Positions 9,462-24,977 of a DNA stretch of 36,019 bases are shown piece after piece. The first letter of the stretch is position 1. Each line of letters begins with the position of its first letter. The stretch lies in NCBI GenBank assembly GCA_903920455.1, contig CAIXLY010000051.1, forward strand, positions 1 to 36,019, in the 5' to 3' direction. This DNA comes from an uncultured bacterium (GTDB lineage: Bacteria; Bacteroidota; Bacteroidia; Chitinophagales; Chitinophagaceae). The notes beneath the pieces are model-generated. The model was not told the DNA's origin, made no database searches, and was given only the letters and a program-made list of their open reading frames with translations. A program made the translations under genes and the position numbers.

Positions 9462-9773
9462 ATGCTAAATGTCTTCAAAAACCTTTTCTCATCAGCACCA
9501 GAAGTAGATTACGCAAAGTTGGTGAACAGCGGTGCAATGATAGTTGATGTTCGTTCCCCTGGTGAATTTAACAGTGGGCACATTAATGGATCAATCAATA
9601 TCCCACTCGAAGAAATAAAAAACAAATCAGGAGAACTGAAAAAGAAAAACAAAGTCATTATCACCTGCTGCAGAAGTGGTAACAGAAGTGGCATAGCAAA
9701 ATCAATACTGGATAATCAGGGGATTGAATGTTATAATGGAGGTGCTTGGAATGTGCTAGATCATAAAATTTGA
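9462..9773 (+). CDS. Single-domain rhodanese (sulfurtransferase)
   Basis: A 103-residue protein made of one rhodanese domain: MIVDVRSPGEFNSGHINGSI (26-45) is the CH2A/CH2B region and TCCRSGNRS (68-76) the active loop, with C70 as the likely persulfide-carrying cysteine and C69 next to it. No signal peptide is seen, so it should act in the cytosol, moving sulfane sulfur among thiosulfate, low-molecular-weight thiols and proteins. It follows the persulfide dioxygenase by 88 bases, and its stop codon overlaps the TTG start of the next gene (TTGA), so the two are probably translationally coupled. Confidence 0.92.
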   Translation: MLNVFKNLFSSAPEVDYAKLVNSGAMIVDVRSPGEFNSGHINGSINIPLEEIKNKSGELKKKNKVIITCCRSGNRSGIAKSILDNQGIECYNGGAWNVLDHKI

Positions 9774-11194
9774 TATTGAGAAAGATAATCCTACTCTGGA
9801 TATCAATGCTATTGGTAGCAACATCCAATGCACAACACCAGGAGCTGGGAGAAAAACCTTCGATCTGGAAAGAAAAAGGGAAGGAAACAGTTGACTCCAA
9901 CTCACTGCTCTATGCCTTTAAGAAAGGGACCATGAATGGCCACCTTCGATATTTCTTCATGGCTACAAACAATGAAGCAGCCTTGTCAGACTACTACGCA
10001 AATGCTGGTGGCGGTGGAATTAAATTCGAAACTTCAAAGTTTAAAGGCCTGCAGCTTGGCATTAGCGGATTTTTTACATTTAATCTTGGCTCATCCAATC
10101 TATCAAGGCCTGACCCCATCACAAACCTATCGAACCGATACGAAATTGGACTCTTTGATATTGAAAATCCAAATAAAAAAAGTGACATCAATAGACTAGA
10201 GGAGTTTTATTTAAAATATACCGTTGGGGGCAACTTAATCCTTGCCGGCAAACAAATGATTAATACTCCTTTCATCAACCTCCAAGATGGTAGAATGAGG
10301 CCTACAGAAGTAAGTGGTATTTGGACCGAAATCAATAGCATCAAAAAGATAAAAATTGAAGGTGGATTGCTAAACCAGATCTCTCCAAGGAGTACAACCA
10401 GATGGTTCAGTGTTGGGAAATCTATTGGGGTATATTCAGCCGGATTAAATAAAGATGGCAGCAAATCTGATTACACAGGAAACACCACAACAAAAGGTAT
10501 TGCTATGTTTGGGATAACCCATAAGCCAAGCAGCAATGTATCACTGAAAGCTTGGAACCTCTTTGTAGAAAATATATTTAATACATCGATGTTACAAATA
10601 GACCTTAAAAAAACAATTTCTTCTAGAGGAGATTTTTTAACTGGATTTCAAATTATTCAACAACATAAAATTGGAGATGGCGGAAATAAAACCCTATCCA
10701 AAAGATATGTTCAAGATAATATGTCAATCACCTTTGGCGGTAACATTGGTTGGGAAAACAAATCATGGAAAACTTCTTTCAATTATAATAGAATAACAGC
10801 AACTGGGCGATACCTCATGCCAAGAGAATGGGGAAGAGACCCATTCTACACTTTTATGTCGCGCGAAAGAAATGAAGGACTTGCTGATGTCAACGCATTT
10901 GTATTAAAAGTTGGCTATACTATTCCAAAGACAAATATCAAAACATCAACAGCACTGGGATACTTCGATCTTCCCAACATCAATGATGCGGCAAAAAATA
11001 AATATAGTATGCCCTCATATACCCAGCTAAACATCGATATGAGGTATGCGTTTAATGGCTTCTTAAACGGGCTTGGAGTACAGCTTCTGTATGTTTATAA
11101 AAACAAACTTGGCAATACCCCTATCGCCACGAAATACATCATCAACAAAGTGAATATGAGTCTTTGGAATTTTGTGTTGAATTATGACTTTTAA
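9770..11194 (+). CDS. OprD-like outer-membrane porin family protein
   Basis: A 474-residue protein with a signal peptide (MILRKIILLWISMLLVATSNA, cut before QHQ) and a long run of alternating polar/hydrophobic segments ending in an aromatic residue (NYDF), as in outer-membrane beta-barrels. HLRYFFMATNN near residue 58, an AGGGGIKFETSKFKGLQLGISGFF block near 77-100, and LAGKQMINTPFINLQDGRMRPTEVSG near 156-181 resemble OprD-family porins (G.G..G..TA.FKGL.L.... then K...P....D.R..P..FEG). The TTG start overlaps the preceding stop (TTGA); no better ATG keeps a full signal peptide. Its place in the sulfur block suggests passage of thiosulfate, tetrathionate or another small anion through the outer membrane, which is inference. 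Confidence 0.75.
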   Translation: MILRKIILLWISMLLVATSNAQHQELGEKPSIWKEKGKETVDSNSLLYAFKKGTMNGHLRYFFMATNNEAALSDYYANAGGGGIKFETSKFKGLQLGISGFFTFNLGSSNLSRPDPITNLSNRYEIGLFDIENPNKKSDINRLEEFYLKYTVGGNLILAGKQMINTPFINLQDGRMRPTEVSGIWTEINSIKKIKIEGGLLNQISPRSTTRWFSVGKSIGVYSAGLNKDGSKSDYTGNTTTKGIAMFGITHKPSSNVSLKAWNLFVENIFNTSMLQIDLKKTISSRGDFLTGFQIIQQHKIGDGGNKTLSKRYVQDNMSITFGGNIGWENKSWKTSFNYNRITATGRYLMPREWGRDPFYTFMSRERNEGLADVNAFVLKVGYTIPKTNIKTSTALGYFDLPNINDAAKNKYSMPSYTQLNIDMRYAFNGFLNGLGVQLLYVYKNKLGNTPIATKYIINKVNMSLWNFVLNYDF

Positions 11195-11212
11195 TCTCCA
11201 GCACCCAAGCTA

Positions 11213-11228
11213 TGTGACCAATATCACA
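11213..11228 (+). promoter_or_regulatory. Crp/Fnr-type palindrome upstream of tsdA, with -7-like element
   Basis: TGTGA-CCAATA-TCACA is an exact match to the TGTGA-N6-TCACA consensus. It begins 18 bases after the porin stop codon and ends 49 bases before the cytochrome ATG. TACATTTA at 11251-11258 matches seven of eight bases of TAnnTTTG and starts 30.5 bases from the dyad centre, almost the same spacing as at 7096. This supports an extra promoter inside the block. Confidence 0.65.
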
Positions 11229-11277
11229 ATATGATTTATTCGGTTTAGATTACATTTATAAACATATACCTGTTTGC

Positions 11278-12261
11278 ATGATAAACCTGAAAGGAAACTG
11301 GATCATTTACTTAATTACCATAGGTGTATTCGTTGTACTCATTAGCGAGGTCGCTGAGACCTCAACTACCCCGAAGAAAGAACTACCTCGAAGTGCTAAT
11401 AGTGATGAGTGGTCCGCCCCAAGCTTGTTCAGGGATCACCTGCTTGAGGGAGATGAAAGAAAAAAAGTTATTTATGGAGAAGAGCTTATTGCCAACACCG
11501 CAAAATATCTCGGCCCTAAAGGAACTATTGCACAAATAACAAACGGCATGAATTGCCAGAATTGCCACTTGGATGCGGGAAAGAAACGATGGGGCAACAA
11601 CTATGGGGGAGTAAGTGCCAATTACCCGAAATTCCGCGATAGAAGTGGCTCCATAGAAACCGTTTATAAGCGCGTAAGCGATTGTATGGAGAGAAGCCTT
11701 AATGGTAAAACATTGGATAGCAGCACCTATGAAATGCAGTCAATGATGGCGTACATCAAATGGGTTGGTCGGGATGTTGAAAAAAATACAACACCCAAGG
11801 GCGTTGGCATTATGCCTCCCGAATATCTTGATCGCGCAGCAAGTCCCACCAACGGCAATACGATCTATACAGCAAAATGCCAAAGCTGTCATGGCTCAAA
11901 TGGAGAAGGCCTAATGGCAGCAGATGGCATGAGCTTTACATACCCACCACTTTGGGGGGCGAATAGTTATAATATTGGAGCTGGGCTATTTCGCCTTTCC
12001 CGCCTGGCAGGCTATGTTCGTGATAACATGCCCTTGAACCAAGCATCCCATAAATCACCAGCGCTATCTGACGAAGAATCATGGGATGTAGCAGCATTTA
12101 TCAACTCACAACCACGTCCTAAAAAAGACCTGTCCCACGACTGGCCAAATATTTCCAAGAAGCCGATTGATCACCCATTCGGCCCCTACACAGATGGATT
12201 CTCTGAAGAACAACACAAGTATGGACCATTTAAGCCCATTATTGCCGCTAGGAAAAAATAA
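11278..12261 (+). CDS. tsdA: TsdA-type dihaem cytochrome c (thiosulfate dehydrogenase/tetrathionate reductase)
   Basis: A 327-residue protein with an N-terminal membrane or signal segment (about 7-25) and two c-type haem sites: CQNCH (93-97) and CQSCH (201-205). Between them SDCMERSLNG (134-143) carries C136, matching the cysteine that serves as axial haem ligand in TsdA of Allochromatium. NMPL (250-253) supplies a likely methionine ligand for the second haem. The order haem 1, Cys ligand, haem 2, Met ligand is the TsdA pattern. The enzyme interconverts two thiosulfate and tetrathionate in the periplasm, and some homologues run mainly in the reductive direction, so the direction here is open. 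It has its own Crp/Fnr-type site, and the SoxB-like gene follows after 58 bases. Confidence 0.88.
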   Translation: MINLKGNWIIYLITIGVFVVLISEVAETSTTPKKELPRSANSDEWSAPSLFRDHLLEGDERKKVIYGEELIANTAKYLGPKGTIAQITNGMNCQNCHLDAGKKRWGNNYGGVSANYPKFRDRSGSIETVYKRVSDCMERSLNGKTLDSSTYEMQSMMAYIKWVGRDVEKNTTPKGVGIMPPEYLDRAASPTNGNTIYTAKCQSCHGSNGEGLMAADGMSFTYPPLWGANSYNIGAGLFRLSRLAGYVRDNMPLNQASHKSPALSDEESWDVAAFINSQPRPKKDLSHDWPNISKKPIDHPFGPYTDGFSEEQHKYGPFKPIIAARKK

Positions 12262-12319
12262 AATTTCGCTCAAGTAAATGAAGAGTGGGATTAACATGGG
12301 TTAACTTAAAAATAATATC

Positions 12320-14128
12320 ATGAAACACATAACAACCTGCACCTGCTCTTCATGTGAAACCGAATCAATTAGCAAGGCAGAAAGAGAAATTCACGTTTCT
12401 TTTTCTGAAAACAGCAGAAGAGATTTTCTGCGAAAGTCAGGAAGATTAGGCCTGGGATTGGGTATTGGGGGTGGATTGATAGGTACTCCTTTAGCGGCAT
12501 CTGCGCTAAATCAAGAAGATGCAGCCTACAAAAGCCGTTCTATGAATCAAAACAAAGCAGTACAGCATGGCAAAGCCAAGCTGCTGACTTTGCTGCATAC
12601 AGCAGACATTCATTCACAGCTTAATATTCATGATGAATTCTTTATTGAAAACGAGATCCCTGTATATCGTAAACGTGGTGGCTTTGCTACCCTAAAAAAT
12701 ATGATCAATACACTGCGCAGAGAAAATGCCAGTAACACACTAGTGATTGATGGTGGAGATTGCTTTCAAGGAAGTGGCGTAGCAGCACTAAGCGAAGGGA
12801 AAGCCATTGTTCCACTCATGAATAATATTGGATATGATATCATGCTCCCCGGAAATTGGGAAGTAGTCTATGGGAAAGAAATGATGATGAAAGACATGTT
12901 CGCATACAATGGAGTAAAAGTATGTGCTAATATGTTTCATGACACCAATGATGAAATGAAGGGAGACCTCATTTTTCCGCCTTATTTCATTAAACAAATT
13001 GCAGGAATAAAAATCGGTTTCATCGGGTACAATGACCCACTCACACCAAAAAGACAATCACCGGCCTACAGCGATGGCATCAAGTTCACAGCACCCGAAT
13101 TGAATGTTTCCAAATACATAAAGATTTTAAAAGAGTATGAACAATGTGATATGGTGTTTTTGCTAACGCACATGGGACTTGCACAACAGGTTGGGCTAGC
13201 CAACATGCCACAAGTAACAGGAGTTGATTACATATTGGGTGCAGACACACATGAAAGGGTGAGAACACCGATAGAAGGCAAATACACAAAAGTCACAGAG
13301 CCCGGAGCCTTTGGCTCTTTTATTGCAAAACTTGATATCGTAGTTGAAGATGGCGTTGTGAAGGATCATAGCTACCAACTGATGGATGTAGATCCCGAAA
13401 TATATAAGGAGGATGAGGAAATGAAGCGATTGGTCAATAAAGCACGTGAACCTTACAAAAAAGAATTAAATCGGGTTATAGGAAAAACAAAAACCCCACT
13501 GGTTAGGTATTATGTAATTGAAACTCCGATGGACAACTTCATCACCGATGCCATCATGTGGAAGTTCAAGCCGGATATAGCACTCAGCAATGGATTCAGA
13601 TTTTGCCCGCCGCTTGTACCTGACCCAAAAACATGTGAGGCAGAAATTACGGTAGATTACCTCTGGAATATGTTGCCGGTAGACAGTGAGGCCAAGACAG
13701 GAATCATCACAGGGAAACAGCTGTGGGGCTGGATGGAGAAAGAACTTCAAAATGCATTTGCAAAAGATCCGGCGAAACGCTTTGGCGGATGGGTAGTAAG
13801 ATTCAACGGCATGGAGGTTAATTTCACGATAGGAAATGAACTGGGCAAAAGGGTTAACTGGATAAAAGTAGCAGGCAGCCAGATTGACCTTGAAAAAGAA
13901 TACAATTTTGTTGCCTGTGAAAGAGAAGGCGACCCCGATACCACAATTTGTAGGGTTGAAGGAGTAAAATCACCAAAAAAATTAGGGGCTACATTACACA
14001 CGGTTATAGAAGAATACCTAAAAGTGCATTCTCCCATCTCCCCAAAGCTAGAGGGCCGTTGCACTGCAACAGATGCGCCTAATTCTTTACTGACACAACT
14101 GATGGGCGTGGGCTACAAATTTAGATAG
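12320..14128 (+). CDS. SoxB-like metallophosphoesterase/5'-nucleotidase family protein, Tat-exported
   Basis: A 602-residue protein with an unusual cysteine-rich head (CTCSSC, 7-12), a twin-arginine motif SRRDFLRKS (32-40) and a glycine/leucine hydrophobic stretch (41-63). The metallophosphatase domain has LLHTADIHSQ (91-100; D96, H98), DGGDCFQGSG (144-153; D147), PGNWEVVYG (177-185; N179), and LTHMG (282-286; H284). The GNWE..YG form is like SoxB (HWEFTYG) rather than ordinary 5'-nucleotidases (GNHEFD). A 5'-nucleotidase C-terminal domain follows (about 385-570), including ETPMDNFITDA. The usual GHxH motif reads GADTHER here, with D309 where the first histidine is expected. SoxB releases sulfate from SoxY-bound sulfane in the periplasm, but no soxYZ or soxAX is in the window. 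Location in the sulfur block supports a sulfur role over nucleotide hydrolysis. Confidence 0.75.
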   Translation: MKHITTCTCSSCETESISKAEREIHVSFSENSRRDFLRKSGRLGLGLGIGGGLIGTPLAASALNQEDAAYKSRSMNQNKAVQHGKAKLLTLLHTADIHSQLNIHDEFFIENEIPVYRKRGGFATLKNMINTLRRENASNTLVIDGGDCFQGSGVAALSEGKAIVPLMNNIGYDIMLPGNWEVVYGKEMMMKDMFAYNGVKVCANMFHDTNDEMKGDLIFPPYFIKQIAGIKIGFIGYNDPLTPKRQSPAYSDGIKFTAPELNVSKYIKILKEYEQCDMVFLLTHMGLAQQVGLANMPQVTGVDYILGADTHERVRTPIEGKYTKVTEPGAFGSFIAKLDIVVEDGVVKDHSYQLMDVDPEIYKEDEEMKRLVNKAREPYKKELNRVIGKTKTPLVRYYVIETPMDNFITDAIMWKFKPDIALSNGFRFCPPLVPDPKTCEAEITVDYLWNMLPVDSEAKTGIITGKQLWGWMEKELQNAFAKDPAKRFGGWVVRFNGMEVNFTIGNELGKRVNWIKVAGSQIDLEKEYNFVACEREGDPDTTICRVEGVKSPKKLGATLHTVIEEYLKVHSPISPKLEGRCTATDAPNSLLTQLMGVGYKFR

Positions 14129-14242: not shown

Positions 14243-15466
14243 ATGTCTTACAAGCTGTCTTTTTTATCCTGTCTGGGAATCGTCATTGGCACAATTATAG
14301 GAAGCGGAATTTTCATCGTGCCTTCTATTATGATTAAAGTGTTGCCATCTCCACAACTAATCATGTTGGTTTGGGTATTGGCCGGTGTCGTTTCAATAAT
14401 TGGTGGACTGGTAATTGCAGGCATGGGCAATGTATTTCCTGAAGCAAAGAATTTGCTTGACTACTACCGACTATTGTTCCCTCCTTGGATTTCATACGCC
14501 TTTAATTTAGCTTCGAATTGGATCATAAATCCTTGTGGCACTGTTGCTATTGCATTCGTTTTTGCTGAATATGCAGGATATTTCATCTCCCTTGACCACT
14601 TTCAAATAAAGCTCACTGCAATCGCTCTTTTGTTTGGAATGACATTGATTGATTCCATCAATATGAAAATTGCAGATCGATTTCAAATGATATTTACAGG
14701 AGTAAAAATTGCTGCAATTATTTTGCTGATAACCTTATTGATTTTGCCGGGAGAAGGAAATTTAAATAACTTCAGTAGTGCCCCAATTATGGCGAATTGG
14801 GACATGATAAAAATAACTGGTGCTTTCATTGCCGCATGTACAGGTGCTTTAAATGCATTTGATGGTTGGTATATGGTTAGCCATCTAACCGCAGAAGTGA
14901 AAGGAGGAAATAAAACAGTTAGCCGTTCAATAATTTTTGGGCTAATCATATGCATGATACTTTACCTATTGACAACATTGGCTTATCATTTTGTGCTTAC
15001 CCCAACTGAGGTAGGCTCATCAAAATTAGTAGCCGTTACTGCCCTAGGGAAAGTATCATTTGGATGGGCTCCAGGACTAATCGCAACAATGATTTTAATT
15101 TCTACTGCCAGCGCCGTCAATGCTAATATGATTGCCTCCTCAAGATTAATTGCCAGCTCAGCCCAGAACAATATGTTGCCTAAATATTTTTCAAAAATAA
15201 ACAAAAGGGGTGTCCCTGTAAGAGCCTTTGGATTGATATTTATTTTTGAAACCATCTTGGTTTTAACGGGGTCCTATGAGCTATTTCTTGATGTTTCGCT
15301 TTTCGCAGTTTGGCTCTTTGTTACTATACTAACTGCCGGATTCCTTCGGGCATTTATTAAACGAAAAAATAAAGTCCCTGGCTTTAAAAAAATAGCAATG
15401 ATTGCCGCTTGTATTCTACTCATTGTATTTGGCGTAATCTACATCGGAAACTTTTTCCTTAAATAA
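14243..15466 (+). CDS. APC-family amino-acid permease
   Basis: A 407-residue polytopic protein with about 12 hydrophobic segments. VIGTIIGSGIFIVPS (14-28) is the TM1 glycine-rich signature of the APC (amino acid-polyamine-organocation) superfamily, where the broken helix binds the amino-acid carboxylate. The later ACTGALNAFDGWYMVSHLTAEVKGG (about 198-222) matches the TM6 region (F.G......E...) of LAT-type permeases. The substrate cannot be told. It begins 114 bases after the SoxB-like gene and is followed, after gaps of 124 and 46 bases, by the DUF1295 protein and the ATP-grasp pair, all on the same strand, so it may bring in or export the amino acid or peptide used by them. That link is inferred from position. 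Confidence 0.88.
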   Translation: MSYKLSFLSCLGIVIGTIIGSGIFIVPSIMIKVLPSPQLIMLVWVLAGVVSIIGGLVIAGMGNVFPEAKNLLDYYRLLFPPWISYAFNLASNWIINPCGTVAIAFVFAEYAGYFISLDHFQIKLTAIALLFGMTLIDSINMKIADRFQMIFTGVKIAAIILLITLLILPGEGNLNNFSSAPIMANWDMIKITGAFIAACTGALNAFDGWYMVSHLTAEVKGGNKTVSRSIIFGLIICMILYLLTTLAYHFVLTPTEVGSSKLVAVTALGKVSFGWAPGLIATMILISTASAVNANMIASSRLIASSAQNNMLPKYFSKINKRGVPVRAFGLIFIFETILVLTGSYELFLDVSLFAVWLFVTILTAGFLRAFIKRKNKVPGFKKIAMIAACILLIVFGVIYIGNFFLK

Positions 15467-15590: not shown

Positions 15591-16505
15591 ATGAAGAAAA
15601 CGGTAAATTTTTTAATGGCAACCATCATCTTGCTACCTATAGGAGCCTATTTTCTTGGCACACCTCCAACTGACCTTCAACTTAAGATACTTAAACACAG
15701 TTCATGGATTCTGGCTGCAGTCATTGCCTTTACCTTTATTGTTGGCCAACTGACCGGAAACAATTCTCAGGTAGATAAGCTATGGAGTATCATCCCTATT
15801 GTATATGTATGGTACATGACTTTTCTGGGTGGATGGAATGAACGAATGATCCTGATGTCCGTGCTGGTCTCACTATGGGGAGCAAGGCTTACTTATAATT
15901 TTGCAAGAAGAGGGGCATATACCTGGAGATTTTGGGAGGGTGAAGAAGATTACCGCTGGGAGATCCTCAGGAAAAAACCTGGTTTCAAAAACCCAATCGT
16001 TTGGATGATATTTAACCTTCTTTTCATTTGCTTCTATCAAAACGTATTGATATTTCTTTTTACTCTTCCCATACTCAGTGCATTGGCAGCTCATTCCCAG
16101 GGAATTGGATTAGTAGATGTGTTGCTTTCGGGCTTGTTTGTTGGTCTGGTTATTCTAGAATATCAGGCAGACCAACAACAATATGACTTTCAAACTGAAA
16201 AATACCGTCGGATCAAAGCTGGGGAAGCTCTTGGGAAATATGCAGATGGTTTTATCTCAACTGGCCTTTGGAGCAAAGTAAGACACCCAAACTATGCAGC
16301 AGAACAGGGAATATGGATCAGTTTTTATGCAATGAGTATTGCTGCAACGGGTGAGTGGTTGAACTGGACGATGCCTGGGTGTATATTATTGGTAATATTA
16401 TTTAAGGGCAGTTCCAACTTTTCAGAAGAAATCTCATCTGGTAAATACCCCGCATACAAAGAATACCAAAAAAAAGCAGGTAGATTCATTCCCAAGTTTT
16501 GGTAA
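15591..16505 (+). CDS. DUF1295 membrane protein (steroid-reductase / isoprenylcysteine methyltransferase-like fold)
   Basis: A 304-residue protein with several transmembrane segments in the first two thirds (TM near 7-25, 38-55, 65-80, 83-100, 132-165, 175-192). The C-terminal part carries the family signature GLWSKVRHPNYAAEQG and ends with EYQKKAGRFIPKFW. In the related ICMT and steroid 5-alpha-reductase proteins this RHPNY region binds the cofactor (S-adenosylmethionine or NADPH). No biochemical role is established for most DUF1295 proteins. It ends 46 bases before the first ATP-grasp gene. Because that operon also holds a SET methyltransferase domain, a second methyl-transfer step at the membrane is a possible reading, but reduction is equally possible. 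Confidence 0.85.
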   Translation: MKKTVNFLMATIILLPIGAYFLGTPPTDLQLKILKHSSWILAAVIAFTFIVGQLTGNNSQVDKLWSIIPIVYVWYMTFLGGWNERMILMSVLVSLWGARLTYNFARRGAYTWRFWEGEEDYRWEILRKKPGFKNPIVWMIFNLLFICFYQNVLIFLFTLPILSALAAHSQGIGLVDVLLSGLFVGLVILEYQADQQQYDFQTEKYRRIKAGEALGKYADGFISTGLWSKVRHPNYAAEQGIWISFYAMSIAATGEWLNWTMPGCILLVILFKGSSNFSEEISSGKYPAYKEYQKKAGRFIPKFW

Positions 16506-16551: not shown

Positions 16552-17712
16552 ATGCAATCAGACCAGGATAAAGATAACAATATCAACACATCATCAAAGA
16601 ATATCATGTCTGGTTCTGCCGGCCAATCAATACCCCTTGATAATTTAAAAATATGGGTCTTAGCGCCTTATCTGGAATCTTCAGATAACAACATAAATTA
16701 TTATTACGACTTTACTCAAAGCATTGCAGAGTACACTAAAATATTCAATGAACTTGACGTCGAATGGGAATGGCAGCCCGTGACCATGAATGATTTTTCA
16801 ACCACAATCGATAAGATAGCGAATGAAGGTTCAGAAAAGATTTCAATGATACTTAACCTCTGCGATGGCGATGAAGTGAATGGAACACCTGGAATATCGG
16901 TTGTAAAAAAAATAGAGTCCAAAAATATTACCTACACAGGGTCAGATGAATACTTCTATCGCATCACCACCTCCAAGATCCCTATGAAAAAAGCCTTTGA
17001 TGAAGCAAAGGTGCGTACAGCAAATTGGAAAGGGATTTCTTCTGAAACAGAAGATCTAAGTAATTTATTTAAACTACTCGGAACGCCAATCATTCTAAAA
17101 CCATCAGTATCGGGAGGGAGCATGGGTGTAGGAATAAGAAATGTGGTTGATAGCCACGACTCACTTAAGGAACAGTTAACGAATATGTTCAATGGATACC
17201 GTGGCTGGAATCTTGCAATCGATGGCATCATTGCAGAAGAATTTATAACCGGCCGCGAATTCACAACCATGATTACAGGATCAAGTCACTTAGATGAAAG
17301 TTGTAGAGTGTATAAGCCCGTTGAGCGCGTCTTTCATTCCTCATTACCAGAAAAAGAAAAATTTCTTTCCTTCGACAGGCTCTGGGAAATCTATGAAGAT
17401 GAAAGCCCAATGCCTGGAAATGAAAATTTTTATGCGTACAAGGAAGTGGATGAAGTATTGGCTGATGCTGTAATTAAAATAAGCATGGAGGCATATCGTT
17501 CGGTGCGCGGAACGGGATATGGAAGAGTGGACATAAGACAAGATGAAAAAACAGGAGAACTATATGTTCTAGAGGTGAATGCTCAATGTGGATTAAGCGA
17601 AGATGAAGACTTTACCTCCATCGGAGCTATTCTTAGGGTCAATAAAACATCTTTTAAAGATATGATTGTGGAGATTATTCAAGATGCTTTAATCAGAAAA
17701 GAAAAAAAATGA
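16552..17712 (+). CDS. ATP-grasp ligase, D-Ala-D-Ala ligase-like
   Basis: A 386-residue cytosolic protein. After about 30 polar residues comes a Rossmann-like N-domain (IWVLAPY, 34-40; NLCDGDE, 102-108). The ATP-grasp fold has K183 in ILKPSVSGGSMGVG (181-194, the flexible glycine-rich loop), IIAEEFITGREFT (226-238) with the hinge glutamates, and the magnesium-binding residues D327 (GRVDIRQ), E341 and N343 (LEVNAQCGLSED). The Ddl-specific VNT.PG signature is replaced by VNAQCG, and bacterial cell-wall ddl is normally not beside a SET gene, so this is probably not the cell-wall ligase. It should join a carboxylate to an amine through an acyl-phosphate. Its stop overlaps the next start by four bases (ATGA), so the two products are probably made together and may be partners. 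Confidence 0.85.
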   Translation: MQSDQDKDNNINTSSKNIMSGSAGQSIPLDNLKIWVLAPYLESSDNNINYYYDFTQSIAEYTKIFNELDVEWEWQPVTMNDFSTTIDKIANEGSEKISMILNLCDGDEVNGTPGISVVKKIESKNITYTGSDEYFYRITTSKIPMKKAFDEAKVRTANWKGISSETEDLSNLFKLLGTPIILKPSVSGGSMGVGIRNVVDSHDSLKEQLTNMFNGYRGWNLAIDGIIAEEFITGREFTTMITGSSHLDESCRVYKPVERVFHSSLPEKEKFLSFDRLWEIYEDESPMPGNENFYAYKEVDEVLADAVIKISMEAYRSVRGTGYGRVDIRQDEKTGELYVLEVNAQCGLSEDEDFTSIGAILRVNKTSFKDMIVEIIQDALIRKEKK

Positions 17713-19124
17713 GTCTAAAGATTTGTGTTCTTCAGCCCGATTATTCGACATCTTCAGTTGACTATCAAGACTATGATCCGCCTCGTGATCTTTCTTCTTT
17801 GCTTCCTAATGCAAAAATTGATCATATTCAACTCAACAAGCTGACTGTATACAAACAACTGCAAGAGTTAAAAAAGAAAAAATATGATGTCTATGTTAAT
17901 CTTTGTGAGGGATACCTTGATTGGGAAATTCCTTCTATTGATGTCATACATACGCTTGATTTATTAGAACTGCCCTACACTGGACCTACCGCAACATTGT
18001 ATGATCCCCCTAAAACACTAATGAAATATGTTGCCTATTGTGAGGGGGTCAAAACGCCATTATTTGAGAGGATAGATATTAATAGCGATCTCAGAGAAAT
18101 AGCGGAAAATGGAAACTACCCCCTATTCATAAAACCAGCAAAAGCAGGTGATAGCTTGGGAATCGATCATGCATCCTTAGTAATGAATGAATCCGAATTC
18201 ATGAATAAGGCAAGGTCTTTATTGCATGAGTATCCTGAATTACTTTCGGAAGAATATATTGATGGCAGAGAATTTACCGTGCTGGTAGCAGCAAACCCCG
18301 ATGGCAAAACCTGTAGATCCTTTAAACCAGTTGAATATGTATTCCCCGATGGCTTCACGTTTAAAACATATTCACTAAAGACCTCAGAACTTCATCCTGG
18401 TGCTAATATTCCTTGTCATGACAAAGGAATTGAAAATGAATTAAGAACATCAGCAGAAAAAATATTTAGGGGTTTCGGAGGCAAAGGGTATGCTCGTCTT
18501 GATTTTAGAATGAATAATAAAAAAGAAATCTTCTTCCTCGAAATTAATTTTACATGCTCAGTGTTTTATAAGGATGGACTGGAAGGATCTGCCGATTTCA
18601 TTCTTGAATATGATGGTTTTGGAAAATCAGCATTTTTAAAACACATCATCGAAGAAGGGATAAGTAGACATAAAAAGAAACAAAAGCCATATCAACTTCG
18701 CGGTAACTCAATTTCAGGCTACGGAATATATGCTACTGCAAATATTAATAGAGGTGAAATTATTTATCATGGCGAAGATCGTCCACAAAGACTTGTTTCA
18801 AAGTCACACGTTGATCAACATTGGGATGAAGAAGCAAAATTAAATTTTAGAAGATATGCATATCCCATCGGCAAAGAGGTATATGCGATCTGGGATGAAG
18901 AGCCTGCTGAATGGTCGCCACAAAATCACAGTTGTGATCCCAATACAGCATTCTCCGGACTAAATACAATTGCGACTAAAGACATCAGAACTGGAGATGA
19001 GCTTACCCTTGACTATGCCACATTCCTTGATCATACAATGGAGCCATTTGAATGCAGTTGTGGAAGCAGCGCATGCAGAAAAATAATCAGGGGTTCTTTG
19101 CAGGAGAGGAGTATAACTACATAG
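17709..19124 (+). CDS. ATP-grasp ligase fused to a SET-domain methyltransferase
   Basis: A 471-residue two-part protein. Residues 1-320 repeat the layout of the preceding ligase: NLCEGY (64-69), TGPTATLYDPPKTLMK (91-106), K142 in FIKPAKAGDSLGI, EEYIDGREFT (181-190), Y261-ARLDF with D265, and LEIN (277-280) with E278 and N280. Residues 327-461 form a SET domain: GYGIYATANINRGE (337-350), NHSCDPN (406-412), GDELTLDYA (429-437, Y436), then post-SET CSCGSSAC (449-456). C409 with C449, C451 and C456 can form the post-SET zinc site, and the N/H and Y residues for AdoMet binding and catalysis are all present. SET domains methylate lysine. The fusion suggests that ligation and N-methylation act on the same molecule or on a carrier protein. 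The substrate is unknown. Confidence 0.88.
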   Translation: MSLKICVLQPDYSTSSVDYQDYDPPRDLSSLLPNAKIDHIQLNKLTVYKQLQELKKKKYDVYVNLCEGYLDWEIPSIDVIHTLDLLELPYTGPTATLYDPPKTLMKYVAYCEGVKTPLFERIDINSDLREIAENGNYPLFIKPAKAGDSLGIDHASLVMNESEFMNKARSLLHEYPELLSEEYIDGREFTVLVAANPDGKTCRSFKPVEYVFPDGFTFKTYSLKTSELHPGANIPCHDKGIENELRTSAEKIFRGFGGKGYARLDFRMNNKKEIFFLEINFTCSVFYKDGLEGSADFILEYDGFGKSAFLKHIIEEGISRHKKKQKPYQLRGNSISGYGIYATANINRGEIIYHGEDRPQRLVSKSHVDQHWDEEAKLNFRRYAYPIGKEVYAIWDEEPAEWSPQNHSCDPNTAFSGLNTIATKDIRTGDELTLDYATFLDHTMEPFECSCGSSACRKIIRGSLQERSITT

Positions 19125-20513: not shown

Positions 20514-21788
20514 ATGAAACAAATCTTGCTATTAGCACTTTCCATATTTTTTCTTTTGCTAGGGTATACCCAATCAAATCGGGTATTCTCCGGAGGAGAG
20601 GCACTTAATTTCGGCACAGTCGACATTTCAGTATACAAAGGAACATCATGGAGTTCGGAACGGAATGTCAATCCTGGTTATTTCAGTTCCGTAGGAAATG
20701 CAAATTATATTGGATATTCTGATGAAGCACATATCGATGGTTACATAAAGAAATACGGAAATTCTGCATTTACATTTCCCGTTGGGAATGGCAAGGACCT
20801 GAGAATATTAGAAATATCAAGCCTAAATGCAGCAACAGATGCTTATGCAACAGCATGGATTGAAGGTGACCCAAGTAATAATCTTGATCCTACCGAACCT
20901 TTTGCAGGGAATCATTCAGTTACGAAAGTAGCAGAAACAATCTCGTCGGTTAGCCCAGCAGGTCAGTGGGATTGGCAGAGTGGAGAATCAGGAAATCTGG
21001 GCGCTGGCACAACTGGCAATGGAGACGGGCTTACTATTACAGTCAGCATTCCAGACATGACTGGCTTTGCTACAGAATCCGAATTGAGATTAGTTGGATG
21101 GAATGGAACAAGCTGGATAGACCTGAGTGGCAAACCAACTGCAACAGGAAATAAGGAAAATAGCAGGATAAGCGGAACCATGATCGCAGGCATCTCAGCC
21201 ATTGCAATTGGGAAAACAATTTCAGCACCAATTGTAAAAGTGGTTTCCTTTTACGCGAGTGGTTCTGATTGTAACACAATGTTGAAATGGGAAACATCAG
21301 CTGAAAATAATTCAAGCATATTCATCATAGAACAAAGTGTAGATGGCATCAACTTCAACACCATATCATCCCTGTCAATGTCAGGCTCATCTTCGGGCCA
21401 ACGCTATGCAAAAGAAGTTGAGCAATCATCTGGCATTGCATATTACAGAATAAAAATTCAACATGCCAACGGTACACATGAATATTATCCTGCCATTTCA
21501 TTTAATAACAAATGCATTAAAACAGAAAATGTTCGAGTCTATCCGAACCCTGTGGTAAATAATGAAAATATAAATCTACGCTTCAAGACAACCTATGAGG
21601 GCAAAGCAGATCTGGTCATAGTTAGTAATGCCGGGCAGCGAATTCTCAGGAAATTAGTTGAGATCAAGTCGAGTAACAATATACTGACAATAGAAATTAA
21701 GAGCCTCATTCATGGATCCTACTTTATTATACTCCTAGGGCCCAATGGAGAACAAATTGGAAATGCAACACAATTCATAAAACAATAA
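20514..21788 (+). CDS. Secreted protein with T9SS type A C-terminal sorting domain
   Basis: A 424-residue protein with a Sec signal peptide (MKQILLLALSIFFLLLGYTQ). The body is a beta-rich surface domain with low-complexity Gly/Ser/Thr stretches; a segment of the form VSFYASGSDCNTMLKWETSAENNSSIFIIEQSVDGINF (about 243-280) is the fibronectin-like module often found just before the sorting domain. From about residue 342, VRVYPNPVVNNENINLRF starts the type IX secretion C-terminal domain, ending in GEQIGNATQFIKQ. It should be exported by T9SS and anchored or released at the cell surface. The next gene begins three bases after its stop, so they form an operon. No enzymatic motif is visible; the IDGYIKKYGNSAFTFPVGNG part is a common surface-protein motif of the phylum. 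Confidence 0.85.
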   Translation: MKQILLLALSIFFLLLGYTQSNRVFSGGEALNFGTVDISVYKGTSWSSERNVNPGYFSSVGNANYIGYSDEAHIDGYIKKYGNSAFTFPVGNGKDLRILEISSLNAATDAYATAWIEGDPSNNLDPTEPFAGNHSVTKVAETISSVSPAGQWDWQSGESGNLGAGTTGNGDGLTITVSIPDMTGFATESELRLVGWNGTSWIDLSGKPTATGNKENSRISGTMIAGISAIAIGKTISAPIVKVVSFYASGSDCNTMLKWETSAENNSSIFIIEQSVDGINFNTISSLSMSGSSSGQRYAKEVEQSSGIAYYRIKIQHANGTHEYYPAISFNNKCIKTENVRVYPNPVVNNENINLRFKTTYEGKADLVIVSNAGQRILRKLVEIKSSNNILTIEIKSLIHGSYFIILLGPNGEQIGNATQFIKQ

Positions 21789-21791
21789 GCA

Positions 21792-22628
21792 TTGACACAA
21801 GTGAACACGAAAAAATATTACAGCCTAACACATATAATTATTTTGATCCTGGCATTATCATCTAATTCCCTTCTTTTTTCACAGGTTAAAATTGGCGACA
21901 ACCCCAGATTCATAAACCCAGATGCAATGCTTGAAATTGAATCCGGTAGCAAAGGAGTTCTTCTACCAAGAATTGCGCTCAGATCAACTACTGCTTCCGC
22001 TCCATTGAAAAAATTTACACAAGGAATGGTAGTATATAATACAGCATCGGTTAATGATCTTACCCCAGGATTATATTATGCTGATGGGGTAAAATGGGTA
22101 AGGGCAACAACTTCACTAAAAGAAGGAGAAGGCAATACAAATCAACTCTGGAGTTTGAATGGGAATAATGGCGTTATGGCAAACAGTTTTCTCGGCCCAA
22201 CCAATAATGCAGCACTTATTATGAAGACCAATAATTTGGAGCGGCTTCGCATTACAGAAAAAGGATGGGTCGGCATTGGAACCCCAACACCAAAATCTGC
22301 TTTGCAAATTAAAGGTCAGCTAACTATAGACACCCTAAGCGTAGGTAATCCTCAGACAGATAAAATATTGGTGGCAAATCCAGCTGATGGCAGGGTAAGA
22401 TCAATCCATATTTCAGCCCTAACAAATGCTGTTCAAAACTACACCGAGATGGTTTCATATAACGGGAAAAATATATTTAATACCCCTGCAATCATTACTG
22501 ATGCAAATAAAATAATGCTATACAGAAACGGGGTACTGATATCATTCACGGTGAACAATAGCAACTCGATTGTATCGGAATTACCCTGCAAACAAGGCGA
22601 CCAAATTAGAATTATTCAATTATTATAA
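21792..22628 (+). CDS. Secreted tail-fibre-like protein
   Basis: A 278-residue protein. TTG at 21792 (or GTG at 21801) is the only usable start near the preceding stop, since no ATG precedes the hydrophobic export segment (about 11-30, ending LLFSQ). The mature protein begins VKIGDNPRFINPDAMLEIE and SGSKGVLLPRI (51-61), continues with MVVYNTASVNDLTPGLYYADGVKWV (79-103), and has RITEKGWVGIGTPTPKSALQIKG (153-175). These are the modules of Bacteroidota tail-fibre-like surface proteins (the V.IGT..P...L.v.G motif precedes trimeric domains in phage and bacterial fibres). The end (about 240-278, IMLYRNGVL ... GDQIRIIQL) matches the end of the next gene product. Function unknown; adhesion or surface-layer role is only a guess. 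Confidence 0.75.
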   Translation: MTQVNTKKYYSLTHIIILILALSSNSLLFSQVKIGDNPRFINPDAMLEIESGSKGVLLPRIALRSTTASAPLKKFTQGMVVYNTASVNDLTPGLYYADGVKWVRATTSLKEGEGNTNQLWSLNGNNGVMANSFLGPTNNAALIMKTNNLERLRITEKGWVGIGTPTPKSALQIKGQLTIDTLSVGNPQTDKILVANPADGRVRSIHISALTNAVQNYTEMVSYNGKNIFNTPAIITDANKIMLYRNGVLISFTVNNSNSIVSELPCKQGDQIRIIQLL

Positions 22629-22644
22629 AACAAAAAAACAAAAA

Positions 22645-23469
22645 ATGAAAAAACTTCTACTTTTTTCGATTGCAGCAGGAATTAGTTTCACAGCATCAGC
22701 ACAAAAAGACAGTACCAAAGTGATCGACAACAAGGGTACCATCAAATGGGTCATCTCCAGCACCGCAGCAGTCATCACCAAATCAGACAGCACGCTTCTT
22801 TATGTAACACCAAAACAATTAAGCGACAGCAGCTTTGCAAAATTTGCAAACAATGGCTTAACAAAAAATGGACAAACACTTGAGCTTGGTGGCACGCTGA
22901 ATCGTGTTACGACCATTGAAACAAGTGCATCAAATTTTTTACAGATTACCGGATTACAATCAGGTTCAAACACAGCTGATAGCGTAATGGTAATAAACCC
23001 ATCAACCGGCCAACTGAAGTATATTTCAGCATCGTCACTGTTTAATGCCCTAAGCTTCGGGAATGGTTTAACAAAAACAGGGAATCTGGTAGAGCTGGGT
23101 GGTACACTAACCAAAGCAACAACGATTGCTACTGACGCTACCAACAATCTTAAAATTACAGGACTGCAAAGTGGAACCCTTGCTACCGACAGTCTTGTTG
23201 TATCGGCAACAGATGGCACTTTAAAAAGAGTTGCAGCTGAGTCACTATTGCAAAGTGGTGAAGTAAATTTTAGTGCTACAGCTGGACAAACAGCTTATAC
23301 GGTACCCAACTTACCAGTTGCAGCTTCAAAGATTTGGGTTTATAGAAATGGCGCAAAACTTATGCCGGTAAATGACTTTACAACAACCACAGGACAAGTC
23401 AGTCTCACTTCAGCAGTTGGATCTCTTGTAGCAGCTGGAGATTTAATTGAAGTGCAATGGGTGAAATAA
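22645..23469 (+). CDS. Secreted repeat protein, tail-fibre-like
   Basis: A 274-residue protein starting at the ATG that gives MKKLLLFSIAAGISFTASAQ, a clear signal peptide; the longer frame upstream overlaps the preceding gene and is not used. Two copies of a roughly 62-residue repeat lie at 70-131 and 140-201: NGLTK.G...ELGGTL...TTI.T.A.N.L.ITGLQSG then a DS..V....G.LK....SL end. The C-terminal part (about 205-274) has FSATAGQTAYTVPNLP, IWVYRNGAKL and AGDLIEVQWVK, a phage tail-fibre/tail-tip module shared with the preceding gene's product. It is 16 bases after that gene, so the two belong to one transcript. No catalytic motif is present. Confidence 0.8.
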   Translation: MKKLLLFSIAAGISFTASAQKDSTKVIDNKGTIKWVISSTAAVITKSDSTLLYVTPKQLSDSSFAKFANNGLTKNGQTLELGGTLNRVTTIETSASNFLQITGLQSGSNTADSVMVINPSTGQLKYISASSLFNALSFGNGLTKTGNLVELGGTLTKATTIATDATNNLKITGLQSGTLATDSLVVSATDGTLKRVAAESLLQSGEVNFSATAGQTAYTVPNLPVAASKIWVYRNGAKLMPVNDFTTTTGQVSLTSAVGSLVAAGDLIEVQWVK

Positions 23470-23518
23470 CACAATTCAATTAATCTCATAAATTTTAATC
23501 CACTTTCAAAATAATGCC

Positions 23519-23555
23519 TGATCAGTAACTTATCACAAGGATAAGTTACTGATCA
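23519..23555. repeat. 16-bp perfect hairpin 15 bases before the next start codon
   Basis: TGATCAGTAACTTATC and its exact reverse complement GATAAGTTACTGATCA flank a five-base loop (ACAAG). There is no T-run after it, and only 15 bases separate it from the ATG at 23571, so it is not a normal intrinsic terminator. It could lie over or near the ribosome loading site of the downstream gene. Confidence 0.75.
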
Positions 23556-23570
23556 CATTAGTATACCACA

Positions 23571-24977
23571 ATGAAAAGCACCGCGTTACTCTTTCTTTTT
23601 TTTATAGTTGCAATAAATGGGTTTGGACAAATTGTTATCGGTCCAAAAGGCACAAAACTTACACTCGACAGCAGCAAATGGAAGATATCGGGCAATAACA
23701 TTTACAATAAAAATGTGGGAAATTTAGGCATTGGGACAAGCGCGCCTACCGCACAATTGCATACAACGGGAGACCTAAGACTTGAAGGCATCGGGACAAA
23801 TACCTCAAACTCGAAAATATTGACCACTGATGGCCTAGGCAATGTAACAACCAGATTGTTGTCAAATATCCTATCTGGGAATACAATTACTTCTATAAAC
23901 GGACTTACAAACTCCCTGCAAACATTTTTAATTGGAACAGCTGGATCTGATTTCAATATTTCATCTTCAGGCTCAGGCCATACATTTAATTTGCCCAATG
24001 CGACTGCATCAAATCGAGGTGCCTTGTCATCAACAGATTGGTCAATATTTAATGGGAAAGAAAATACACTAACCTTCTCAAATGGATTAACAAGAAATGC
24101 AAACTCCGTAAGTGTAAATACATCTCAAAATATCAGCACATTATCAAATCTTACGTCAAACGGATTAATAAAAACATCCGGCGGCACTGGTGCTTTATCA
24201 ATTGCCACTGCAAGCGACTTCCCAATTTTAAATCAAAATACAACTGGTTCTGCTGCAACTGTAATTACTAACGCAAATCTTACAGGACCCATAACTTCAG
24301 TTGGGAACACAACATCTGTTGAATCAAATGTTATTACAAATTCGATGCTTTCGCAAATTTCAACACAAGTATTTAAAGGTCGCAATTCAACAGGAACAGG
24401 TAACGTGGAAGACCTTACTTCCACACAAGCAACAGCAATGTTAAATACCTTTAATTCGACTTCAAAAGGTCTGGTGCCGGCAAGCGGAGGTGGAACAACT
24501 GCTTTTTTAAGAGCTGATGGAACTTTTGCTGAACCTGCTGGGAATTATCGCCGAAATATGATCACCATAACAGAAGACGTGATCAATGACAATAGAACTG
24601 CAAATACTCTCGAAGATTTAACAGGCTTATCCTTTAATGTTATCTCTGGAATAATTTACCGCTTCTATGCCCTGATCCCATACAGTAGTGATGCAACAAA
24701 TAACGGAAGTCGCTGGACGATCAATGCGCCAGCCACCACATTATTGAGTTATTCAAGCCGAAATACACTTTCAGCTACTGCTCAAACCGTGAATTTTGCC
24801 GGTGCAATCAATATCCCTGCAGCATGTAATAATAATTCTTTTCTCAATGGCAATCTTGCAATCATTGAGGGCATCATTAAGCCCTCAGCCAACGGGACCG
24901 TACAAATAAGGTTTGCAAGTGAAGCGGCGAATGTTGCCATCACCGCAAAAGCAGGTGCTACTTTGGAGTATTGGTAA
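23571..24977 (+). CDS. Secreted tail-fibre-like protein
   Basis: A 468-residue protein with a signal peptide (MKSTALLFLFFIVAINGFGQ). The mature region has NVGNLGIGTSAPTAQLHTTGDLRLEG (about 49-74), the IGT..P...L...G module of fibre proteins, then a long Ser/Thr/Asn-rich region including TGSAATVITNANLTGPITSVGNTTSV and STGTGNVEDLTSTQATAML, typical of phage tail-fibre-like repeats, and FLRADGTFAEPAG just before a C-terminal globular domain (about 330-468) without a recognisable family. It is the last of four co-oriented secreted-protein genes and converges with the minus-strand oxidoreductase, 23 bases away. Role unknown, likely structural or adhesive. Confidence 0.75.
   Translation: MKSTALLFLFFIVAINGFGQIVIGPKGTKLTLDSSKWKISGNNIYNKNVGNLGIGTSAPTAQLHTTGDLRLEGIGTNTSNSKILTTDGLGNVTTRLLSNILSGNTITSINGLTNSLQTFLIGTAGSDFNISSSGSGHTFNLPNATASNRGALSSTDWSIFNGKENTLTFSNGLTRNANSVSVNTSQNISTLSNLTSNGLIKTSGGTGALSIATASDFPILNQNTTGSAATVITNANLTGPITSVGNTTSVESNVITNSMLSQISTQVFKGRNSTGTGNVEDLTSTQATAMLNTFNSTSKGLVPASGGGTTAFLRADGTFAEPAGNYRRNMITITEDVINDNRTANTLEDLTGLSFNVISGIIYRFYALIPYSSDATNNGSRWTINAPATTLLSYSSRNTLSATAQTVNFAGAINIPAACNNNSFLNGNLAIIEGIIKPSANGTVQIRFASEAANVAITAKAGATLEYW

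Follow-up and report, generated by a model that had tools for sequence, protein, structure and literature searches.

A conserved gene set of Ddl-like ATP-grasp ligases and SET-domain proteins in Chitinophagaceae and green sulfur bacteria

We describe a gene set that joins two ATP-grasp ligases related to D-Ala-D-Ala ligases (Ddl), one of them fused to a SET domain, with a small stand-alone SET protein, and that proves to be both genuine and conserved; within the literature searched, it has not been described. It came to light in a 36,019-nt stretch of DNA from an uncultured member of the Chitinophagaceae (hereafter, the window), in which the two ligase genes, A and B, are adjacent. The members of the set co-occur across genomes, their catalytic residues are intact, and curated models place both ligases outside Ddl. 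With a probability of roughly 60%, we think that the set specifies a ribosome- and NRPS-independent pathway in which amino acids are ligated and SET-methylated and the product is exported. A ligation/methylation pathway had already been proposed from the sequence of the window alone; the adjacency of A and B and their distinction from Ddl held up, while the partner genes named in that proposal did not, and the SET domain need not act on protein lysine. A non-ribosomal pathway of ligation and methylation is the best reading because A and B stay adjacent, are not Ddl, and are accompanied by no recurring precursor ORF in the few places inspected. Searches of the open-access literature returned no such system, which is a weak negative, as most subscription papers lie outside such searches. 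The only two papers in them that mention both ATP-grasp and SET domains, one on TTLL12 and one on drug side effects, do not deal with a bacterial fusion, to judge by their titles, and a term search in a review devoted to SET proteins of bacteria finds neither "ligase" nor "ATP-grasp" in its main text.

The A-B ligase pair

Gene A (16552-17712, forward strand) encodes a Ddl-like ATP-grasp ligase of 386 aa (Pfam Dala_Dala_lig_C, 56.6 bits, cut-off 24). Gene B (17709-19124, forward strand) encodes 471 aa, in which Pfam recognizes both a Dala_Dala_lig_C domain at residues 128-280 (67.7 bits) and a SET domain, PF00856, at residues 337-436 (18717-19016; 42.7 bits against a cut-off of 22.4). The ATP-grasp part of B as a whole, with Ddl-type Foldseek matches, extends over residues 1-325 (17709-18683), and the SET domain is followed by a post-SET cluster of cysteines, C449, C451 and C456 (19053-19076). 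Post-SET cysteines have a zinc role. The C-terminus of B thus has the Pfam score, the NH and Tyr motifs and the post-SET cysteines of a SET protein, and the ORFs and Pfam matches confirm what had been read from the sequence, namely, two adjacent ATP-grasp genes, the second of which runs into a complete SET and post-SET region. The ATGA overlap between the stop codon of A and the start codon of B, also noted in that reading, is present in the window but is not a general trait, since in 42 loci the A-to-B gap lies anywhere between -10 and +98 bases. Assembly artefact is ruled out as the source of the fusion, as relatives of B are encoded on 44 contigs, on 41 of them with a length of at least 455 aa.

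The ATP- and magnesium-binding residues of both ligases, described as intact in the sequence-only reading, are indeed conserved in alignments of their relatives, from which loci L027, L032 and L044 were left out. In the A alignment (n=42, the window plus the 41 of 44 loci that were long enough), K142, K183, E229, R325, D327, E341 and N343 are present in 42/42 sequences. In the B alignment (n=58, consisting of the window, 41 loci and 16 further B genes), the ATP-grasp residues K106, K142, R263, D265, E278 and N280 and the SET and post-SET residues N406, H407, Y436, C409, C449, C451 and C456 are found in all 58 sequences, E181 is glutamate in 55, and the SAM-loop position G337 is occupied by G in 49, by A in 8 and by N in one. 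An AlphaFold2 model of B, built from a 27-row alignment (mean pLDDT 84.7, pTM 0.78), yielded exclusively D-Ala-D-Ala or D-Ala-D-Lac ligases among its best 50 Foldseek matches, the top E value being 1.4e-19.

A and B resemble Ddl and Ddl-like amino-acid ligases in family and in ATP/Mg residues, and B also in fold, but they differ from Ddl in curated scores, in the substrate motif and in the SET fusion carried by B. On NF002378 (cut-off 243) A scores 86.5 bits and B 73.6 bits, and neither reaches the threshold of any NCBIfam Ddl model among the best 25 of 35 matches for A and the best 25 of 41 for B. The genome of the window has a Ddl of its own, a 330-aa protein on another contig (C7) that scores 352.8 bits on the NF002527 equivalog model against a cut-off of 310. 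HGxxGEDG is the N-terminal substrate motif of D-Ala-D-Ala ligases; the corresponding stretch reads HGTPGEDG in the genome's own Ddl, and is replaced by NLCDGDE in A and by NLCEGY in B. The earlier suggestion that the pair are not plain D-Ala-D-Ala ligases is therefore upheld, and we reject a Ddl role for A and B on account of the curated cut-offs, the motif and the separate true Ddl.

Gene neighbourhood and co-occurrence

A scan of genome contigs for relatives of B gave 44 loci at 57-72% identity, the named ones all from Bacteroidota; the scan reaches close relatives only, so that these loci carry no information on distant ones. Persistence of the A-B pair, the check proposed along with the original reading, was observed in 42 of the 44, where A immediately precedes B in the same orientation (we include here L032, in which A is split over two ORFs); as for the two exceptions, L044 ends at a contig edge and L027 lacks A at this place. 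S, a stand-alone SET gene of about 165 codons, is located directly upstream of A in 26/44 loci. Directly downstream of B, on the same strand, 12/44 loci have a gene for a protein of about 300 aa, as judged by BLAST similarity to one reference, and 4/44 have no downstream gene in the sequence at hand. All three Pfam-scanned examples of this protein, two from the 12 (L015 and L030) and one from a further locus (L064, genome G033), consist of ABC_membrane_3 without an ATPase domain. An ABC-exporter-type transmembrane domain (TMD) without ATPase is also seen in SbmA-like peptide transporters (PMC13316013, from its accessible part), to which the ~300-aa protein is likened by analogy only.

The remaining frequent neighbours, inspected by eye in 30 clusters, look like housekeeping genes that track local synteny. 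Of the genes which the sequence-only reading had taken for pathway partners, an APC amino-acid permease (14243-15466, forward strand; PF13520, 167.7 bits) is near the pair in 3/44 loci and a DUF1295 membrane protein (15591-16505, forward strand; PF06966, 140.6 bits) adjoins A in 5/44, in each case among close relatives only, and we regard both as clade-specific neighbours and not as core parts. The recurrent partners were missed in that reading because in the genome of the window they are either located elsewhere, as is S, or absent, as is a transporter of the PF13748 kind. Two peptidase genes are likewise not core: an M28 gene that follows B in close relatives (identified by Pfam in L008 and L009, with L006 and L010 in the same similarity cluster), and an M1 gene in the vicinity of B in L033-L038 (identified by Pfam in L033). 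The S-A and A-B gaps, viewed for precursor-peptide ORFs, are short, and in the six of 44 loci inspected no small ORF of at least 15 aa recurs within the 330 bases that precede S. A plasmid search with B returned no full fusion, as none of the 437 matching records covers 80% of B.

Of 395 genomes from the phylum, 17 carry full-length B (at least 438 bits), 15 carry S, every one of them together with B, and six carry orthologous A (at least 519 bits), all with B and S. The threshold for S was at least 181 bits, and a fragment of 103.8 bits at a contig end in G342 was counted as well. Fisher's test on the co-occurrence of S with B gives p = 2.6e-25; it ignores relatedness, and for this reason we added counts by genus (S in 7/9 genera with B vs 0/162 others) and within groups: in the family of the window B occurs in 5/14 genomes and S in the same five, and in genus g60 B occurs in 9/65 genomes and S in the same nine. 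One genome, G259, with a SET protein that scores 99 bits on the S profile and no full-length B, was left out of the S count since inspection by eye showed neither the FFYPxxEW signature in its protein nor the set's usual neighbours around the gene; if it is included, 15/16 S genes fall inside B genomes and p becomes 4.2e-24. Two genomes, G211 and G340, have B with neither S nor an A orthologue which, together with B-containing g60 genomes, indicates that A is not always needed, and neither is S. Adjacency is not the sole basis of the B-S link, as three genomes keep S apart from B: that of the window, with S on contig C59, G292, and G212, in which S-A, B and the PF13748 protein are all present on three separate contigs. 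Contig C59 also carries, at its end, a third SET gene of the window genome (12833-13210, 125 aa).

The nine g60 genomes with B are green sulfur bacteria, as the FMO protein is found in 9/9, once as a short fragment. Their gene order is S-B-ABC exporter-small SET, with S directly upstream of B in 9/9 (one S being cut by the contig end), the ABC exporter downstream of B in 8/8 loci with sequence there (the ninth is cut), and the small SET after the exporter in 8/8; no A orthologue was found in these nine genomes. As this full-length exporter differs from the TMD-only protein, two lineages tie the gene set to a transporter. We searched a selection of 36 genomes (17 carrying B, 19 lacking it) for the profile PF13748 and considered matches with E <1e-30 to be strong. 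Strong matches occur in G033, G115 and G212, all of them B genomes, which amounts to 3/17 genomes with B vs 0/19 without (Fisher p = 0.095, not significant), and to 3/6 genomes with A vs 0/30 others (p = 0.0028). A fourth match over the cut-off, a 614-aa frame in G010 (E 7e-5), comes from a genome without B, and at E 0.001 the profile matches in 9/36 genomes. The profile search gave no match in the genome of the window, in which the transporter gene is absent or replaced.

Relatives of the SET proteins

The closest relative of S with a solved structure is BurB/MSMT, of the SET-domain methionine S-methyltransferases (PDB 9l4t). A profile of S searched against PDB sequences gives BurB first, at E 1.2e-16 and 64 bits, followed by a next match at 6e-8 and 35.7 bits, and an AlphaFold2 model of S from L012 (pLDDT 89.2) also finds BurB first in Foldseek (E 5e-9, TM 0.65; next E 1e-6). 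Both are stand-alone SET proteins of similar size, with 26% identity in the fold alignment, which is too low for transfer of substrate. According to the accessible part of its description, BurB methylates the sulfur of free methionine, which it binds through main-chain contacts (PMC12542666), and for this reason sequence cannot tell whether S shares the substrate. Tyr124 and His93 of BurB align with Y111 and H80 of S, invariant in 18/18 S rows, which is a weak criterion; the Y124F variant of BurB keeps >60% activity (PMC12542666, same part). S differs from BurB in its setting, as it is found with ATP-grasp ligases, frequently along with a transporter, instead of DMSP enzymes, and in having no G-x-G SAM motif by eye. 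No BurI, BurD, BurE or other bur-pathway genes were seen beside S-A-B when the 30 most frequent clusters of neighbouring genes in the 44 loci were inspected by eye. BurB, the solved protein closest to S, acts on a free amino acid, and SET domains therefore need not act on protein lysine, lysine being the target named in the sequence-only reading.

In a rough tree, S is grouped with other small SET proteins, apart from the SET domain of B (99/92 and 99/95), although nine rows are ungrouped, several branches are long and the bootstrap has not settled. The group comprises 35 rows with several small SETs, including one from a polyketide cluster. Annotation as protein-lysine methyltransferase is common for bacterial SET proteins, and nine out of 12 plasmid SET matches bear it; six of the 12 were examined for gene setting, and only three of these are situated among biosynthetic-looking genes: one in a polyketide cluster with a PKS, a dioxygenase, an aminotransferase and an aldehyde dehydrogenase, one on a Tabrizicola plasmid (L087, 1124-6128) with a GHMP kinase, a PLP enzyme, a DMT transporter and an alanine-racemase-fold protein, and one in Streptomyces, in a mixed setting. 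The settings of the three others are uninformative.

Proposed pathway and its alternatives

We infer the chemical steps of the A/B/S pathway, their substrates and order, and the export of the product as follows. Judging by fold and intact residues, A and B would each activate a carboxylate as an acyl phosphate and join it to an amine. From its similarity to BurB, S would methylate an amino acid in free form, perhaps methionine at its sulfur, and the SET domain tethered to B may place a methyl group onto the ligated product or one of its building blocks. An ABC-fold transporter would then carry the product out of the cell, as a TMD-only protein in part of the Chitinophagaceae and as a complete exporter in green sulfur bacteria. 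The latter have B without A, which points to B as the maker of the core product and to A as the enzyme that extends it. A more specific version, which we put forward tentatively and hold to be rather doubtful in its details, would have S producing S-methylmethionine, or else an amino acid with an N-methyl group, which A and B would incorporate into a di- or tripeptide, and the SET domain of B methylating the peptide while it is held by the enzyme, to give an exported product bearing a sulfonium or betaine group. If this version is correct, it would represent a new class of exported natural products made without ribosome or NRPS, with SET domains as small-molecule methyltransferases, in Chitinophagaceae and green sulfur bacteria. 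The gene set offers a directly testable case for SET domains in small-molecule biosynthesis beyond S-methylation of methionine, and points to an unseen metabolite in both groups.

The alternative that survives best, although we consider it unlikely, is protein modification: B, together with A, would attach an amino acid to a protein of the host in the manner of RimK or TTL enzymes, and lysines in host proteins would be the targets of the SET domains. Protein lysine is the classical substrate of SET domains, and the SET domain of B matches the histone methyltransferase KMT2D (E 2.5e-11) as well as it does BurB (E 2.7e-11); moreover, SET-like and ATP-grasp-like domains are combined on a single eukaryotic chain in TTLL12 (PMC3520985). 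In the accessible part of that source, however, TTLL12 is a TTL-type protein with the reverse domain order, has lost critical residues and is inactive in vitro. Further evidence against this alternative is that A and B best match Ddl models by family and sequence, and B also by fold, that S is nearest to a free-amino-acid enzyme, and that transporter genes go along with the gene set.

Somewhat less probable still is a methylated dipeptide or betaine-like osmolyte retained in the cell, with the transporters as chance or unrelated neighbours. It would agree with the limited adjacency of the TMD gene to B (12/44 loci) and its absence from the genome of the window, and also with the company kept by related ligases: in 5/5 loci of the same phylum (L092-L096), a tandem pair of Ddl-like ligases, with 24-28% identity to A or B, is accompanied by KamA-family and acetyltransferase genes (KamA confirmed in 3/5, GNAT in 1/5, and the rest assigned by eye). 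KamA-family and acetyltransferase genes are the combination of beta-lysine osmolyte synthesis. These pairs share with A-B the two adjacent Ddl-like ligases but differ in their companion genes and in having no SET match in the five loci, which suggests that such pairs serve other small pathways. Retention in the cell is opposed by green sulfur bacteria, which keep a different, full-length ABC exporter after B in every locus with sequence there. Finally, that A and B are duplicated cell-wall D-Ala-D-Ala ligases with an incidental SET domain can practically be dismissed, for although their Ddl family match in Pfam and the fold of B agree with it, the NF002378 scores, the replaced motif next to a separate true Ddl and the patchy distribution of the gene set (17/395 phylum genomes) do not.

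Several other gene arrangements were also noticed. According to its annotations, a Thioflavicoccus plasmid (L081, 4467-9948) combines a Ddl-like ATP-grasp gene with SbnA, diaminobutyrate transaminase, ornithine cyclodeaminase and KamA genes. At L082 (G203, contig C65, 3989-7318), SET, AdoMet decarboxylase and spermidine synthase are united in one 617-aa protein, next to a 483-aa SET protein in which Pfam finds SET alone and the remainder looks ATP-grasp-like by eye. Within the window, genes for a rhodanese, an OprD-family porin, a SoxA/TsdA-type cytochrome c and a SoxB-like protein lie in a row at 9462-14128, the last with 268.8 bits, below the SoxB cut-off of 550, and hence a SoxB relative of unsure function. 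On the other side of the A-B pair, at 20514-24977, inspection of ORF translations by eye reveals four secreted-looking repetitive proteins in tandem.
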